This document shows, piece by piece, positions 2,318 to 42,416 of a DNA stretch of 43,041 nt. The notes beneath the pieces are model-generated. The model searched no databases and was not told the DNA's origin. It worked only from the letters and a program-made list of their open reading frames with translations. The stretch is taken from positions 120,791 through 163,831 of the forward strand of contig JAQVNC010000001.1 in the NCBI GenBank assembly GCA_028703305.1, given 5' to 3'. Within the stretch, counting starts at the first letter, position 1. The number at the start of each line of letters is the position of its first letter. A program made the translations under genes and the position numbers. The stretch is from Patescibacteria group bacterium (GTDB taxonomy: Bacteria > Patescibacteriota > Patescibacteriia > Patescibacteriales > GWC2-42-12).

Positions 2318-2346
2318 TTGACAAAATTTAAAATGTATGTTATATT
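2318..2346 (+). promoter_or_regulatory. Strong sigma-70-type promoter with extended -10
   Basis: TTGACA at 2318-2323, a 17-base spacer, and TATATT at 2341-2346 preceded by TG-T (extended -10). Transcription would start near 2353 and give a roughly 320-base leader before the first gene at 2674. It is the only strong promoter seen for the three-gene island. Confidence 0.8.
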
Positions 2347-2404
2347 GAAACATTAAATAAATGAGCCTTTAAAATTTAAAAAATAGTGGAAGGAGAGAGC
2401 CATT

Positions 2405-2478
2405 ATGTGTGAATAAATAAAGCGATAATTATTATGGCATTTCCTTTCGGGAAATTCTTTGATAGTTGTCGCTTTTTT
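2405..2478 (+). terminator. Leader terminator preceded by a three-codon ORF
   Basis: A 13-bp stem (2420-2432 with 2462-2474, including G-U pairs) is followed by TTTTTT at 2473-2478; an inner ATTTCC/GGAAAT hairpin sits in the loop. Just upstream, AAGGAGAG at 2390-2397 is correctly spaced before ATG TGT GAA TAA (2405-2416), which ends 3 bases before the stem. The arrangement suggests attenuation of the downstream genes; that is inference. More hairpins follow (GGAGGATA/TATCCTCC near 2501-2519, ATTCCC/GGGGAAT near 2619-2639). Confidence 0.6.
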
Positions 2479-2673
2479 GTTGGACACGAGAATAATGTGG
2501 AGGATAGAGGTTATCCTCCTTATGGAATTAGGCACTTAATTATTTAATCGGCCTTTAAATTTCATAATCGTCCCCCGCATTATCCTCGTGTTTATTTGAG
2601 GAATGATCTTTAGAAAAAATTCCCACTCGCTAGGGGAAATAAAAATACAGTGAGGAAAAAAGAAGGAGGAGAG

Positions 2674-3077: not shown

Positions 3078-3247
3078 CAATTATACCTTTTAATTTTCCG
3101 GGGAGCATGCTCGCAATTTAAGCATAGCTCCCCATCCATTCTAAAATCATAAAGCAATTTGTGGTTTTAGAAAGGGAGACAATCCCGAGTTCTTTTAAAA
3201 AATTTAGAGGTTTGCGAACCTGAAACCCGCTCGGGCACCATCCCGTT
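3078..3247 (+). ncRNA. Structured intercistronic element, copy 1
   Basis: This 170-base stretch is repeated at 4338-4507 with 4 differences, all in the first 45 bases. Visible hairpins: GGGGAGC-ATGCT with AGCAT-A-GCTCCCC (3100-3133), CTAAAATCA with TGGTTTTAG (3141-3170), and CCCGAG with CTCGGG (3184-3235) enclosing AGGTT-TGCG-AACCT (3208-3221). It lies about 50 bases before the Shine-Dalgarno of the DHH-like gene. It could be a cis-regulatory RNA, an RNA-processing site or a mobile repeat. I recognise no known riboswitch class. No function is claimed. Confidence 0.6.
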
Positions 3248-3299
3248 CAATTGGTAATTAAAACCGCCCCGAAAAAATTGTGGGCAAAAGGAGAAAAAG

Positions 3300-4331
3300 A
3301 TGGAACAGAATGAATGGGAAGTAGGGATAAAGAGTTTGTTTAACAAATTAACCGGTCAAGCGGATGTCAGTTGGGAATTTTTGAAAAGTGCCCACCCGCA
3401 GGATTTTTGCAGTTGGTGGGACTGTCTAGAATTTCTGGTAAGGGCGAAGGATCGTCGGGAAGTCCGGATTGGCCCGAAGGTTGACCTTGATACCGTCGGC
3501 ACGGCATTTTTGCTCGGGATCAACAGGGCAGATAAGGTGATCGTTCTACGTAATGGCCAGGCTTCCGAAGCTGAATTGTCCGATCCCGGTATTACTTGCA
3601 TCGAGGTCGGCGGCTCTGGTCGCACGACCGAAAATAACTGGGATCATCATGATCCCGATGGGCCGAAAGAGTCAGCTACCAAACAAGGGGCTAATGAAGC
3701 GGTAAAATTTCTTACCACTCACCAGCAAGAGTCGGTAGCAAAATTAAAGCTGGTCGATTATATTGAGACTCTTGATGTCCTCGGCCCCCAAGCCCTACCC
3801 GAATACGGACAGGTCGAGTTTCCGACTTTTTCGGATATTTTTGCGGGCATGTGTCTGATCACCCGCGACCCGGTAGAGCAGTTCCAAAAAGGCGTAGAGA
3901 TAATCAGCCAGATAGTCATGGGAAATTATCAAAGTTTTTTTGGAACTATCCGAGGGTTTGAAAAATATTCCGATGCAAAAGCCAAAAACAACCGGCAAAT
4001 TGCCGAGGCGGTTCAGTTGGCCAAGTGGTCAACCACAAAGGCTGGGCGGAAGCTCGGCTATCTGGAAACCGATTTCTTCGGGACCCCGGGTGCGCTTTAT
4101 GGTAAGGGCGCGGAAATCGTGGTGGCGTTCGCGCCGCGGTTCGGCAACCCGCCGGTTCCAAAGTTCACTATCGGTGGCAACGGCATCCGGGTAGATGCGG
4201 CGCTTGCGTCGTTGAATGCCTTGGAGCCAGGCTGGGGTGGACCGCCCACCGGTACGATCATCGGTTCGCCGCGTGAGGGCTCCAAGCTCTCGCTAGAGCA
4301 GGTGGTCAGTGTCGTTAAGGAAGTCCTTTAG
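3300..4331 (+). CDS. DHH-family phosphoesterase-like protein
   Basis: Likely a metal-dependent phosphoesterase of the DHH superfamily (exonucleases, nano-RNases, pyrophosphatases); the substrate cannot be told. Motifs in order: PKVDLDTVGTAFLLG (residues 60-73, the D-x-D motif I), a possible motif II near GITCIEVGGSG, NNWDHHDPDG with DHH at 115-117, DYIETLD near 153-159, and a C-terminal Gly-rich segment PGWGGPPTGTIIGSPREGSK where DHHA1 domains bind substrate. At 343 residues it is a usual length. ATG 3300 is preceded by AGGAGA. Codon use is clearly more GC-rich than in neighbouring genes, suggesting transfer. It is bracketed by the two copies of the 170-base element. Confidence is moderate: the spacing fits DHH, but the overall sequence is diverged from RecJ or NrnA. 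Confidence 0.65.
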   Translation: MEQNEWEVGIKSLFNKLTGQADVSWEFLKSAHPQDFCSWWDCLEFLVRAKDRREVRIGPKVDLDTVGTAFLLGINRADKVIVLRNGQASEAELSDPGITCIEVGGSGRTTENNWDHHDPDGPKESATKQGANEAVKFLTTHQQESVAKLKLVDYIETLDVLGPQALPEYGQVEFPTFSDIFAGMCLITRDPVEQFQKGVEIISQIVMGNYQSFFGTIRGFEKYSDAKAKNNRQIAEAVQLAKWSTTKAGRKLGYLETDFFGTPGALYGKGAEIVVAFAPRFGNPPVPKFTIGGNGIRVDAALASLNALEPGWGGPPTGTIIGSPREGSKLSLEQVVSVVKEVL

Positions 4332-4337
4332 GATTTC

Positions 4338-4507
4338 CAATTGTACCTTTTAACTTTTCGGGGAGCATGCTTGCAATTTAAGCATAGCTCCCCATCCATT
4401 CTAAAATCATAAAGCAATTTGTGGTTTTAGAAAGGGAGACAATCCCGAGTTCTTTTAAAAAATTTAGAGGTTTGCGAACCTGAAACCCGCTCGGGCACCA
4501 TCCCGTT
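4338..4507 (+). ncRNA. Structured intercistronic element, copy 2
   Basis: Second copy of the 170-base element, starting 7 bases after the stop of the DHH-like gene. The last 125 bases are identical to copy 1 and all three hairpins are kept. It precedes the small membrane-protein gene by about 50 bases, the same placement as copy 1. Confidence 0.6.
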
Positions 4508-4560: not shown

Positions 4561-4848
4561 ATGGACCAATTATTGTTGATATACTTTGTCACATTGGCCT
4601 TAGGGTTAGCGAGGGTTATGTATTATGCTATTAGGAAAAAGACTTCCAAATGGCACAAGAACATAATCAACGGACACGAGGCAGGTTGTTCCTGTTATAA
4701 TTGCGTGTTTGATTACATACTCAATCACGTTACCTGCACCTTAATTTTTTGGCCAATATATCTTTCTGCGTTTATAGTAAATAGTTTTATAAACGCGAAT
4801 GGTACCAAGGCAATAAGGGGTATCTCAATGAGAAAGGAGAATGGATAA
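4561..4848 (+). CDS. Small membrane protein with a CSCYNC motif
   Basis: A 95-residue protein of unknown family. ATG 4561 is chosen because TTAGGAGAA precedes it; the 15 upstream codons in frame overlap the leader and look non-coding. Two hydrophobic segments are visible (LLLIYFVTLALGLARVMYYAI near the N-terminus; HVTCTLIFWPIYLSAFIVNSF near the C-terminus), separated by a hydrophilic loop with HEAGCSCYNCVF, a possible metal-binding or redox Cys cluster. It is the last gene of the island; the next strong terminator is at 5131-5162. The function is not inferable. Confidence 0.65.
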   Translation: MDQLLLIYFVTLALGLARVMYYAIRKKTSKWHKNIINGHEAGCSCYNCVFDYILNHVTCTLIFWPIYLSAFIVNSFINANGTKAIRGISMRKENG

Positions 4849-4910
4849 TGATTTAGCCCCTTCCTGGAGTGGTGACGACAAAACTAAAATGTTTTTCACC
4901 GCTCTCTTCC

Positions 4911-4998
4911 CAAAACCATAATTTAGATCCTGAATCAAGCTCAGGATGACAATATAATTGTGGTTTCAGAAAGGGAAAAGAGAAATCCCCCTAACCCC
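4911..4998 (+). repeat. Possible degenerate third copy of the 170-base element, interrupted by a family B repeat
   Basis: AATTGTGGTTTCAGAAAGGG and following AATCCC resemble the second hairpin and linker of the 170-base element. The 5' strand of that hairpin seems to be interrupted by GATCCTGAATCAAGCTCAGG (from 4926), a family B repeat. The match is short, so this is tentative. Confidence 0.35.
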
Positions 4999-5034: not shown

Positions 5035-5116
5035 AGTCTGTAGGGCGAGAGGAGCAGATGGCCTTTAAATCTCTCTCCTCAATTCAATCTGCTCTTTATT
5101 AAACGTTCTACAGACT
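5035..5116 (+). other. Long imperfect hairpin after the island genes
   Basis: AGTCTGTAG at 5035-5043 pairs with CTACAGACT at 5108-5116. Inside, GAGCAGAT can pair with ATCTGCTC, or GAGAGGAG with CTCCTCTC-like bases, giving two alternative folds. It sits just before the terminator at 5131. No known RNA family is recognised. Confidence 0.4.
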
Positions 5117-5130
5117 TTTGGCGGTAAAAT

Positions 5131-5162
5131 AAAAACACGCCCCCATATGGGGCGTGTTTTTT
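5131..5162. terminator. Bidirectional intrinsic terminator
   Basis: AAAAACACGCCCC-ATAT-GGGGCGTGTTTTTT: a perfect stem with T-runs on both strands. It closes the plus-strand island and the minus-strand hicBA pair. Confidence 0.9.
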
Positions 5163-5171
5163 AAGTGAAAA

Positions 5172-5387
5172 TTATACTATAAATTTTTCCTTCGGTATTT
5201 TCGACTGTTTAATTATCGCCAGTAATGTGCCAATAAATATCGGTCGATTTTTTCCATGCAAGGGAACGGCGACCATGATATTAGTTTTTTGATGAGTAAA
5301 AATTTAATGGCTACCTTTCTGGCGCGACAATCTAAAACCGTTAGCCAATAAAACTGTAATCAATTTTTTAGCAGTTATTGGCCGCAT
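5172..5387 (-). pseudogene. hicA: HicA-type toxin with an in-frame nonsense codon
   Basis: HicA toxins are small mRNA interferases with a double-stranded-RNA-binding fold and a catalytic His in GSH. The minus-strand frame from ATG 5387 reads MRPITAKKLITVLLANGF RLSRQKGSH, then TAA (5304-5306), then continues in the same frame IFTHQKTNIMVAVPLHG and GTLLAIIKQSKIPKEKFIV to TAA at 5172. All family landmarks are present (GF..RQ-GSH, VP-H-GK, GTL..I-KQ). One stop falls directly after the catalytic His, so only a 27-residue fragment would be made. It overlaps the hicB end by 20 bases. A sequencing error, genuine loss of toxin or readthrough are all possible; TAA excludes UGA recoding. Confidence 0.85.
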
Positions 5388-5652
5388 AAGTGATTTTTAT
5401 TTTAGACGGCAGGTTCACTCTGATGGCGTCAATAATCGGACGATCATAATAGGCGGGAATATTTTTCTTTTGGCTGGCTAATTCTTCGAGCCAAAGCTCT
5501 AAGACTTCACCGGCCTTATTTTTTGCTTCTTCAAAAGTCTTGCCGAAAGTAACACAGCCGGGAAAAGCGGGGAAAGAAACACTATAGCCGCCTTCATTGG
5601 CCGGCTCAAAAATAGCCGGATATTCTAAAATTTTATGTTGTGATTTATTCAT
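5368..5652 (-). CDS. hicB: HicB-family antitoxin
   Basis: A 94-residue protein with the HicB fold signature: FEPANEGGYSVSFPAFPGCVTFGKTFEEAKNKAGEVLELWLEE is the classic partly degraded RNase H-like antitoxin core (residues about 15-58). HicB proteins bind and neutralise HicA and often repress the operon; here there is no obvious DNA-binding tail after the core. The gene order hicB-hicA is seen in many hic loci, and the 20-base overlap with the toxin frame indicates coupled translation. Because the toxin frame is interrupted, this may be an orphaned antitoxin. ATG 5652 is followed by MNKSQHKILEYPAI. Confidence 0.9.
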   Translation of the reverse strand: MNKSQHKILEYPAIFEPANEGGYSVSFPAFPGCVTFGKTFEEAKNKAGEVLELWLEELASQKKNIPAYYDRPIIDAIRVNLPSKIKITYAANNC

Positions 5653-7453: not shown

Positions 7454-7462
7454 ATTGTAATG

Positions 7463-37275: not shown

Positions 37276-37752
37276 ATGTCCAATAGACATTTAGCCAGAA
37301 CGATTGCCATGCAAACTCTGTTTTCTTGGGATTTTAATGATAAGCAAGAAAAAGATTTAAATGGTTTGATTGAACAGAATTTTAAGCAGTTCGCGCCAAA
37401 GTTTAACGACCACGGGTTTGTTAAAAGCATAATTAACGGCGTGATAAAGCATGAAGCGGAAATTGACGGCTATATTACCAAGTATGCCACCGAGTGGCCG
37501 CTGGATCAGATTACCATCGTAGACAGAAATATCCTACGTATCGGCGTTTACGAGTTGATTTTTGACCAGGATATACCTTCAAAAGTAGCCATTAACGAAG
37601 CCATTGAAATCGCCAAAACTTTTGGCGGCGAATCGTCCGGCAAGTTCGTTAACGGCGTTTTGGGCGCGATTTATAAAGACGTGGCCGGAACTCTTAAAAA
37701 AGCGGAAAAGCCCCATGCCGAAATTTTAGAAGAGCCAATTAATAATCAATAA
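37276..37752 (+). CDS. nusB: Transcription antitermination factor NusB
   Basis: All-helical RNA-binding protein that with S10 binds boxA in rRNA leaders and prevents early termination. The 158 residues have the N-terminal [18 protein letters not shown] (3-20) and the C-terminal signature [21 protein letters not shown]...[32 protein letters not shown]. It is encoded 2.2 kb before a boxA-like sequence at 39956 in front of the 23S gene. The tail after 135 is slightly extended and charged. No Shine-Dalgarno is clear. Confidence 0.95.
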
Positions 37753-37904: not shown

Positions 37905-38597
37905 ATGAAAGATTTTTCAAAGCTGGAAGAATTAATGGATGTTAAATTTAAAAATGTTGACCTGCTAAAGCAAGCGGTCGTGCACCGGTCGTATTTAAAT
38001 GAGCATCCTGATTTTGAGCTCTCCCATAACGAACGCCTGGAATTTCTGGGCGACGCGGTTCTGGAAATTATCGTTACGGAAATTTTATTCCATGATTTTA
38101 TGGAGACGCCGGAAGGCGATCTGACAAACTGGCGGGCCAGCTTGGTAAATTACCGGATGCTGGCCGTAATCGCCAACGAACTCGGCGTTGATAAGTATTT
38201 ATATCTATCCAAAGGGGAATCAAAAGATAAAAATTCAAAGGCGCGGCAAATTATTTTAGCCAATGCCATGGAAGCGATAATCGGCGCGATCTATTTAGAT
38301 CAGGGAATTAAGCCGGCAAAAAAATTCGTTAAAGCCTTCATAATTTCCAAACTGGACAATATTTTAAAAAATAAGCTTTATCTTGACCCCAAATCAAAAT
38401 TTCAAGAAAAAGCCCAGGAAATTTACGGCGTGACCCCGCACTATAAAGTTTTAAGCGAGTCCGGCCCGGATCATGCCAAAGAATTTATCGTCGGTCTTTA
38501 TCTAAATAATGAGCTTATATCCCAAGGCAAAGGCACTTCAAAACAAGAAGCCCAGGTTGATGCCGCTTCACAGGGGCTTATAAATAAAGGCTGGTAA
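37905..38597 (+). CDS. rnc: Ribonuclease III
   Basis: Double-strand-specific RNase that processes rRNA precursors and structured RNAs. The 230 residues comprise the catalytic domain with HNERLEFLGDAVLE (41-54; E43, D50) and NAMEAIIGAIYLD (120-132; E123), and a C-terminal dsRNA-binding domain (about 157-228: DPKSKFQEKAQEIYGVTPHYKVLSESGPDHAKEF, GKGTSKQEAQVDAASQGL). Complete. Its likely targets include the long hairpins inserted in the 23S gene 3 kb away and the many palindromic transcripts. A full family A repeat separates it from nusB. Confidence 0.97.
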   Translation: MKDFSKLEELMDVKFKNVDLLKQAVVHRSYLNEHPDFELSHNERLEFLGDAVLEIIVTEILFHDFMETPEGDLTNWRASLVNYRMLAVIANELGVDKYLYLSKGESKDKNSKARQIILANAMEAIIGAIYLDQGIKPAKKFVKAFIISKLDNILKNKLYLDPKSKFQEKAQEIYGVTPHYKVLSESGPDHAKEFIVGLYLNNELISQGKGTSKQEAQVDAASQGLINKGW

Positions 38598-40746: not shown

Positions 40747-40805
40747 CATCCCGTTAAGGGAGATGAAATAGTATCTGAAACCATATACTTACAAGGAATC
40801 GGAGT

Positions 40806-40908
40806 CCCCCTACGCTCTTTGCTCCGCAAAGAGCTACGGAGGACAAGCCCGTTAAATTTTAGCGGCTTGTCCTCCGTAGCTCCGAACGAAGTGAGGAGCG
40901 TAGGAGGA
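40806..40908 (+). repeat. 23S insert 2: family C cruciform
   Basis: Outer stem CCCCCTACGC with GCGTAGGAGG. Hairpin GCTCTTTGC-TCC-GCAAAGAGC. Central stem TACGGAGGACAAGCC with GGCTTGTCCTCCGTA. Third hairpin GCTCC...GGAGC. It is at the E. coli helix 25 region (about base 545). Confidence 0.75.
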
Positions 40909-41054: not shown

Positions 41055-42137
41055 TTTTTAAGAAAGTCGCATATACAAGACCCGAAGCCGTGTGATCTAG
41101 CCATGATCAGGTTGAACCCTCGAGAAATCGAGGGGGAGGACCGAACCCACTAGCCGTGCAAAACTAGGGGAAGAATCGTGGTTAGAGGTGAAATTCCAAT
41201 CGAACTCGGCAATAGCTGGTTCTCCTCGAAATAGCTTTTGGGCTAGCCTCGAGTGTTTCTTTCTGGGGGTAGAGCACTGAATGAGGACAGGTCGCAAGAT
41301 ACTGTCCTTAACCAAACTCCGAATACCAGAAAATTAAGCTCGGGAGTCAGACTATGGGCGCTAAGGTTCATTAGTCTAAAGGGAAACAGCCCTAATCGCA
41401 ATCTAAGGTCCCTAAATATATGCTAAGTGTGAAAGGTGGTGTCGCGACTGCGACAACTAGGAGGTTGGCTTAGAAGCAGCCATCCTTTAAAGAAAGCGTA
41501 ATAGCTCACTAGTCAAGTTGCCGCGCGCCGAAAATATATCGGGGCTAAGCATATTACCGAAGATGCGGGTTTCCTCGCTTTACGCGAGGGAGCGGTAGAG
41601 GAGCATTCTAAATCCGCTGAAGCTTAAATGTGAATTTGGGTGGAGGATTTAGAAGAGAGAATGTTGGCATGAGTAGCAAAAAGGCAGGTTAAAACCCTGC
41701 CCACCGAAAACTTAAGGTTTCCTGGGCAACGCAAATCGACCCAGGGTTAGTCGGTCCTAAGACGAGGCCCGTGTAGTGCGGGCGTAGCCGATGGATGAGC
41801 TGGTTAATATTCCAGCACTGCCGTAATCTCCGATGGGGGGACGCGGTTTAAAAGTTTGAGCGTTTTTAATGGTATGAACGTTAATGGCGTAAGAAATAGG
41901 CCCAGGCAAATCCGGGCCAACATTTTCTCGCGTTGTTAAAAGACGAAACCTCTGGTGGAGTCAATTCAGATGGATAAACCGCCCAGAAAAACCTCTAGGT
42001 CGCCGCAAGGCGAAAGGATTATGGCAACCGTACCGTAAACCGACACAGGTAAGTGAGGCGAGAAGCCTAAGGTGTACGAGAGAACCTTCGTTAAGGAACT
42101 CGGCAAAATAGCGGTCGTAAGTTCGCAATAAGACCTG

Positions 42138-42250
42138 CCCTCCTACGCTTTTTACTTCGTAAAAAGCTACGGAGGGCAAGCCCTCTTGGCATTTAAATGC
42201 TTAAAGGGGCTTGCCCTCCGTAGCCCGAAACGGAGTGAAGGGCGTAGGGG
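42138..42250 (+). repeat. 23S insert 4: family C cruciform
   Basis: Same layout as 40806-40908: outer CCCTCCTACGC with GCGTAGGGGGG; hairpin GCTTTTTAC-TTC-GTAAAAAGC; central TACGGAGGGCAAGCCC with GGGCTTGCCCTCCGTA; third hairpin GCCC...GGGC. It is at the helix 63 region (about E. coli 1720-1740). Confidence 0.75.
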
Positions 42251-42416
42251 GGCCGCAGCTAAAGAATCCAAGTGACTGTTTAACAAAAACACAGCTCCCT
42301 GCTAACTCGTAAGAGGATGTATAGGGGGTGATGCCTGGCCAGTGTCCGAACGTTAAGGGGAGAGGTCATTCCGTAGCAATACGGAGGCAGCTTTAAACCT
42401 AAGCGCGGATGAACGC

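Follow-up and report, generated by a model that had tools for sequence, protein, structure and literature searches.

We analysed a stretch of 43,041 nt from a Patescibacteria group bacterium (hereafter the window) and found that a 170-nt non-coding sequence is repeated at the gene junctions of a small operon of mostly orphan genes. The element has a defined position and a stable structure, its architecture recurs in other Patescibacteria, its counterparts there are under selection for structure, and it is outside every family tested. With a probability of about 0.5, we consider the repeat to be a transcribed cis-acting RNA that marks the cistron junctions of one long transcript, with hairpins serving processing or stability and a boxA-like sequence serving antitermination. 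Judged from its sequence, its most likely function is that of an intercistronic signal for processing or stabilising the long transcript, and its action is probably similar to that of intercistronic hairpins already known. The preliminary description had already proposed a cis-acting intercistronic element, and this proposal is supported by the finding of the same architecture with unrelated sequences in other Patescibacteria and by the enrichment of repeats in their islands.

The repeated element and its operon

The operon is arranged in the order promoter, GGAGAGAG leader, gene 1, copy 1, gene 2, copy 2, gene 3, third copy, trailer and terminator (Table 1). That the element lies between the genes of an operon with one good promoter supports its reading as a junction signal. 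No match above cut-off in Pfam, NCBIfam or PHROG was obtained for genes 1 and 3, and gene 2 encodes DHH-type motifs, yet gave no match in the family libraries. The trailer contains AAATCTCTCTCCTC, whose core lies at 5071-5078. After the island, on the opposite strand, a HicA/HicB-like pair was recognised by eye (5200-5652), as it was in the Falkowbacteria locus L041 (7430-7890).

Table 1. Positions of the operon's features in the window
Feature	Position	Strand	Basis
Sigma-70-type promoter, TTGACA-17-TATATT, TG before -10	2318..2346	+	11/12 consensus bases
GGAGAGAG leader motif, found repeatedly after promoters of this type in Patescibacteria	2392..2399	+	pattern search
Structured leader: long hairpin (2412-2481), then domain closed by ACACGAGAATAATG/CATTATCCTCGTGT	2412..2594	+	folding
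Gene 1, orphan protein of 110 aa	2674..3006	+	ORF list
Intercistronic element, copy 1	3078..3247	+	self-comparison, folding
Copy 1 hairpin 1, GGGGAG..CUCCCC, purine 5' arm	3100..3133	+	folding
Copy 1 hairpin 2, UUCUAAAAUCAUAAA-GCAA-UUUGUGGUUUUAGAA, pyrimidine 5' arm	3136..3175 (15-bp stem 3139-3172)	+	folding
boxA-like GTTCTTTTAAAAAATTTA, copy 1	3189..3206	+	motif search
Gene 2, DHH-like protein of 343 aa, patchy in Patescibacteria	3300..4331	+	VDLDT and NNWDHH motifs
Intercistronic element, copy 2	4338..4507	+	self-comparison, folding
Copy 2 hairpin 1	4360..4393	+	folding
Copy 2 hairpin 2	4396..4435	+	folding
boxA-like GTTCTTTTAAAAAATTTA, copy 2	4449..4466	+	motif search
Gene 3, small orphan, a probable membrane-spanning protein	4561..4848	+	ORF list
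Third copy, diverged; arms of hairpin 1 GGAGUGGUGA/UCACCGCUC, insert in the loop of hairpin 2	4866..4976	+	alignment, folding
Trailer domain, AAAT-CTCTCTCC-TC enclosed by a long helix	5030..5124 (CTCTCTCC 5071-5078)	+	folding, motif search
Terminator hairpin ending the operon, AAAAACACGCCCCCATATGGGGCGTGTTTTT	5131..5161	+	folding

The direct repeat is genuine, the two copies being 98% identical (4 of 170 positions differ) at a spacing of 1260 nt. As described before, the differences are clustered towards the 5' end; all four fall within the first 35 bases, and the final 135 bases are identical. A stretch of 173 nt per copy folds better than 200/200 dinucleotide shuffles (z -5.42 and -5.34). When the window was folded in 100-nt segments over its first 40 kb, the sense strand reached z -8.4 at both copies, among the lowest values, whereas the antisense fold of the copies was weaker (z -2.8 and -5.6).

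Three hairpins had been drawn in the preliminary description, of which two stand. Hairpins 1 and 2 are strong, and both are larger than first given: hairpin 1, with arms GGGGAGCAUGCU..AGCAUAGCUCCCC, has about 12-14 bp instead of 7-12 bp, and hairpin 2, first assigned 9 bp, has a perfectly paired stem of 15 bp plus CC/GG, capped by GCAA. The supposed third hairpin, CCCGAG/CTCGGG, is no better than chance, with z -0.9 when folded alone and about -0.9 to 0.3 in 100-nt segments across it. The stretch assigned to it instead holds GTTCTTTTAAAAAATTTA, which closely resembles the boxA known from rRNA operons of bacteria; besides the sites of the two copies, there is one similar boxA-like site in the whole 43 kb. 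No U-run directly follows the hairpin stems of the window copies, and thus the hairpins are not intrinsic terminators. A diverged third copy, absent from the preliminary description, is located 3' of the operon's last gene, gene 3. Both hairpins are kept in this copy (z -5.8), and the 3' arm of its hairpin 2 equals that of copy 1 at 18/19 nt, with an inverted repeat inserted in the loop.

A search of the whole genome (925 kb, 98% complete) revealed no close full copy elsewhere, the two copies alone matching at E <= 0.001. In agreement with the earlier remark that no known riboswitch was recognised, no Rfam covariance model matched the element at gathering score; the Rfam search of the element and of the islands L041 and L051 found tRNA and 23S rRNA alone. 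Neither the exact core pattern of the element nor relatives of the DHH-like gene 2 protein were found in viral contigs. Among related genomes (13 from the family and 111 from the order) there was no full copy and one convincing partial match, a hairpin-1-like remnant beside clpP in the family member G001 (74% over 66 nt, E 8.7e-5). Since this remnant has the same relative orientation as in the window, the site in G001 may once have held an island. Other weak matches in the family and order genomes were rejected as short AT-rich stretches.

Other repeats are also present in the window. REP-like TGTCATTGCGAGC.. / CTCGCAATGACA repeats lie between genes at 7461, 7930, 23467, 37770 and further positions and are unrelated to the 170-nt element, and the 23S rRNA gene contains two similar long inverted repeats (40805-40908 and 42137-42253), possibly inserted helices.

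Related islands in other Patescibacteria

Gene 2 is rare, being present in 8/381 genomes of the class, with relatives in metagenome-assembled genomes of Falkowbacteria, Jorgensenbacteria and Uhrbacteria. These relatives, together with the searches at class level, are the basis for placing the genome in the Patescibacteria. Several of these relatives are located in similarly built operons with different element sequences, namely L041/L050 in Falkowbacteria, L042 and L043 in Uhrbacteria and L051 in Jorgensenbacteria; a like architecture is less clear for L044-L046. The common plan is a sense-oriented pair of hairpins 3' of one gene and 5' of the next Shine-Dalgarno, similar within an operon. In L041, three junctions have most of hairpin 2 in common, two of them at 98% over 49 nt, and the sequence of hairpin 1 varies between junctions with its pairing kept. 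L042 has two junctions with two long hairpins each, where hairpin 1 is altered on both arms, and in L051 a hairpin is present five times. The junction hairpins are thus alike within an island and unrelated between islands, and even within the single genome G401 the islands L042 and L142 differ in their element sequences. Two further features of these loci were observed. A GTGACGCCGAC..ACGGGCGAGCCA motif is located just 5' of the Shine-Dalgarno of genes in L041 (5180-5300) and L051 (5600-5655 and 7105-7160). In both Uhrbacteria islands a further protein, possibly also DHH-like and bearing the motifs GGSPSS and DEHEPERWE, is encoded after the gene 2 relative (L042:6009-7022 and L043:3931-4908).

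The junction hairpins favour the transcribed strand. Both strands were folded for 32 elements, some of which had been selected by eye from the sense strand, and copies within one island are not independent. The sense fold was the more stable one in 23 elements, among them all three copies of the window, and the antisense fold in 6 (Wilcoxon p 3e-4; mean difference 4.6 kcal/mol); elements found by self-comparison show the same lean. The test of arm polarity likewise included elements chosen by eye: the 5' arm is purine-rich in 14/16 cases for hairpin 1 and pyrimidine-rich in 27/27 untied elements for hairpin 2, the sequences being unrelated. Furthermore, nine hairpin-2 sequences from three islands showed strong covariation, with 91.5% of cells paired and changes on both sides in 11/16 pairs, compared with 0-4 such pairs when the partner was slid by 1-3 columns. 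These covarying hairpins have a 5'-AGAG/5'-CUGC motif in common and a conserved internal loop. Hairpin 2 of the window lacks this motif and falls outside the covarying group, and the two window copies are too alike for covariation. When a covariance model was built from the AGAG/CUGC hairpin, it retrieved the sequences it was made from, a few weak additional members at most, and not the window, so we regard this hairpin as a subfamily.

The non-coding parts that flank the genes recur in other Patescibacteria. The promoter plus GGAGAGAG pattern occurs in 87/381 genomes of the class with >100 matches, compared with 3 matches for the reversed pattern. Within 5 kb downstream, CTCTCTCC is present on the sense strand in 33 of 78 fetched loci vs 6 for the reversed motif (38 vs 7 when occurrences are counted); its form is frequently AAATCTCTCTCCTC, and several loci have it within a long helix just before a terminator. 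GGAGAGAG and CTCTCTCC are mutually complementary and both are enriched. Pairing between leader and trailer is possible on this basis, without covariation support; the flanking complementarity was 58 vs a permuted mean of 56, and 829/2000 permutations were as high. As matched pairs are no better than permuted ones, we do not claim a leader-trailer helix. In four loci (L103, L104, L105 and L106), each in a different genome, a GAGGAGAGAG..CTCTCTCCTC bracket surrounds a structured RNA of ~285 nt after the GGAGAGAG leader. This RNA has no evident ORF, a conserved GAGTAGACA near its 3' end and no Rfam match, and is possibly a new ncRNA family.

The preliminary description had argued that the placement of the copies was not random, and the delimited islands bear this out: direct repeats were found in 10/20 islands vs 1/20 equal-length stretches just beyond, and junction hairpins recur. 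The totals were 19 vs 3 for direct repeats and 7 vs 6 for inverted repeats. Most of the direct repeats are hairpins at gene junctions; the repeat in L135 is coding. The genes themselves are mostly unrelated, with three similar pairs alone among 45 ORFs of 20 islands, and 9/10 island proteins tested had no Pfam match. In the sister species G006, locus L165 has a trailer and three related hairpin repeats, with different genes.

Possible function and competing explanations

A long transcript from the single promoter would span all three genes. The twin hairpins could then be RNase III-type sites or exonuclease blocks, by which the messages of individual genes would be cut or protected, and the boxA-like sequence 3' of hairpin 2 would let RNA polymerase pass the structured junction without losing processivity, as boxA does in rRNA operons. 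Intercistronic RNase III sites, with hairpins between the genes of a polycistronic transcript, are found in the early region of bacteriophage T7. The elements described here are likewise hairpins between genes of one presumed transcript, in sense orientation and with different flanking genes. They differ in that the hairpins come in twos with opposite purine/pyrimidine polarity, are nearly the same throughout an operon and are carried on a bacterial chromosome. An intercistronic RNase III site has a long near-perfect stem of about 20 bp, compared with 15 bp plus CC/GG for hairpin 2 and about 12-14 bp for hairpin 1 in the window. The best-known sites also have an internal loop, whereas hairpin 2 of the window is perfectly paired; this speaks against the RNase III reading, and cleavage at the element is something that we infer. 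The window encodes RNase III (37926-38576; TIGR02191, 229 bits) and NusB (37294-37677; PF01029, 138 bits), both near-universal in bacteria. The nusB gene and that of RNase III are neighbours and precede the 23S rRNA gene by about 1.5 kb.

Within the proposed mechanism, the boxA component is the weaker one. By analogy with rRNA operons, where boxA keeps RNA polymerase processive, the element perhaps takes part in antitermination. boxA-like sequences are present in 15/78 leader spacers vs 2.5 in shuffles, and within 4 kb of leaders there are 14 such sites in sense and 0 in antisense orientation (7/0 in L165 and 4/0 in L046). Inside the delimited islands there are five strict sites, two of them the window's own, and boxA at junctions is therefore not general. 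Bacterial rRNA operons have boxA antitermination and a leader-trailer helix (PMC10250234). The islands resemble these operons in their promoter, boxA-like motifs, complementary motifs in 5' leader and 3' trailer and structured spacers. In contrast to rRNA operons, they carry protein-coding orphan genes, their GGAGAGAG-CTCTCTCC pairing is without covariation support, and boxA is inconsistent.

The hairpins might also stabilise or insulate without any cleavage, by blocking 3' exonucleases or shielding cistrons, a reading that we consider unlikely but that several observations would fit. The hairpins are often about 4-30 nt from the upstream stop, as at copies 2 and 3 of the window and at several junctions of L041 and L042, the distance from hairpin to next start varies, and there is no terminator U-run. 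REP/BIME sequences are such hairpin repeats after genes and are dispersed at many genomic loci. The window element is likewise a hairpin repeat 3' of genes; it is, however, confined to one operon, with an island-specific sequence and no genome-wide dispersal. Moreover, two hairpins of fixed opposite polarity, together with the internal loop of the subfamily, exceed what a simple barrier needs. It is improbable that the repeats are DNA-level cassette boundaries, recombination sites that let orphan genes enter or leave the operon. In integron cassette arrays, one promoter serves orphan genes with structured attC repeats in between, and it is the cassette's bottom strand that folds. The islands are alike in having one promoter, a single gene direction, variable orphan cargo in a constant framework and near-identical flanking repeats. 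Their structure, however, is that of the RNA strand: the better-folding strand is the transcribed one, and its G-U pairs become A-C mismatches on the other. Neither strand of the three window copies holds an RYYYAAC/GTTRRRY core site, no integron integrase above cut-off is present in the genome (the best tyrosine recombinase scored 122.6 bits, cut-off 265), and the two islands of G401 carry different element sequences. An attC-like recombination site was thus rejected on core sites, integrase and strand.

A recent segmental duplication with functionless hairpins would explain why the window copies are nearly identical and why relatives hold no full copy. We give it little credence, as the diverged third copy retains both hairpins, the same plan is found elsewhere with compensatory changes, and direct repeats are enriched in islands. 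The covariation in the hairpin-2 subfamily and the stability of the transcribed strand favour a cis-acting RNA over a bare duplication. Finally, it is very improbable that the element is a riboswitch or controls the translation of the gene after it. In favour of this, the copies end 52-53 nt 5' of the next ATG (the preliminary description gave about 50 bases to the Shine-Dalgarno), and a GGGA could pair with either of two UCCC segments. However, a special tie to the start of the next gene is not supported, the spacing being variable in other islands, and the same element stands before unrelated genes and once after the last gene. In addition, Rfam gave no match and the third stem is no better than chance.

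Proposed RNA-scaffolded operons in Patescibacteria

Alongside the reading of the element as a junction RNA, we tentatively propose, at somewhat less than even odds, that Patescibacteria have widespread undescribed RNA-scaffolded operons, in which a constant framework (promoter, GGAGAGAG leader, twin-hairpin junctions, CTCTCTCC trailer and terminator) surrounds changing orphan genes, and the framework rather than the genes would be under long-term selection. From the loci compared, such a constant non-coding framework around changing orphan genes looks new: it has no Rfam entry, and a limited search of titles and abstracts of open-licence papers found no paper on the framework or on such elements. 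That operons whose unrelated genes are separated by RNA elements recur across Patescibacteria suggests that gene expression is organised there in a manner not yet described.

The Patescibacteria are a very large and mostly uncultured group, with genomes rich in genes whose function is unknown. If sets of such genes can be recognised by their RNA framework, this would offer a way to find and delimit them, and the constant non-coding parts merit a systematic survey. The framework predicts long, processed and possibly abundant transcripts from the islands, and it would show how minimal genomes organise the expression of variable genes.
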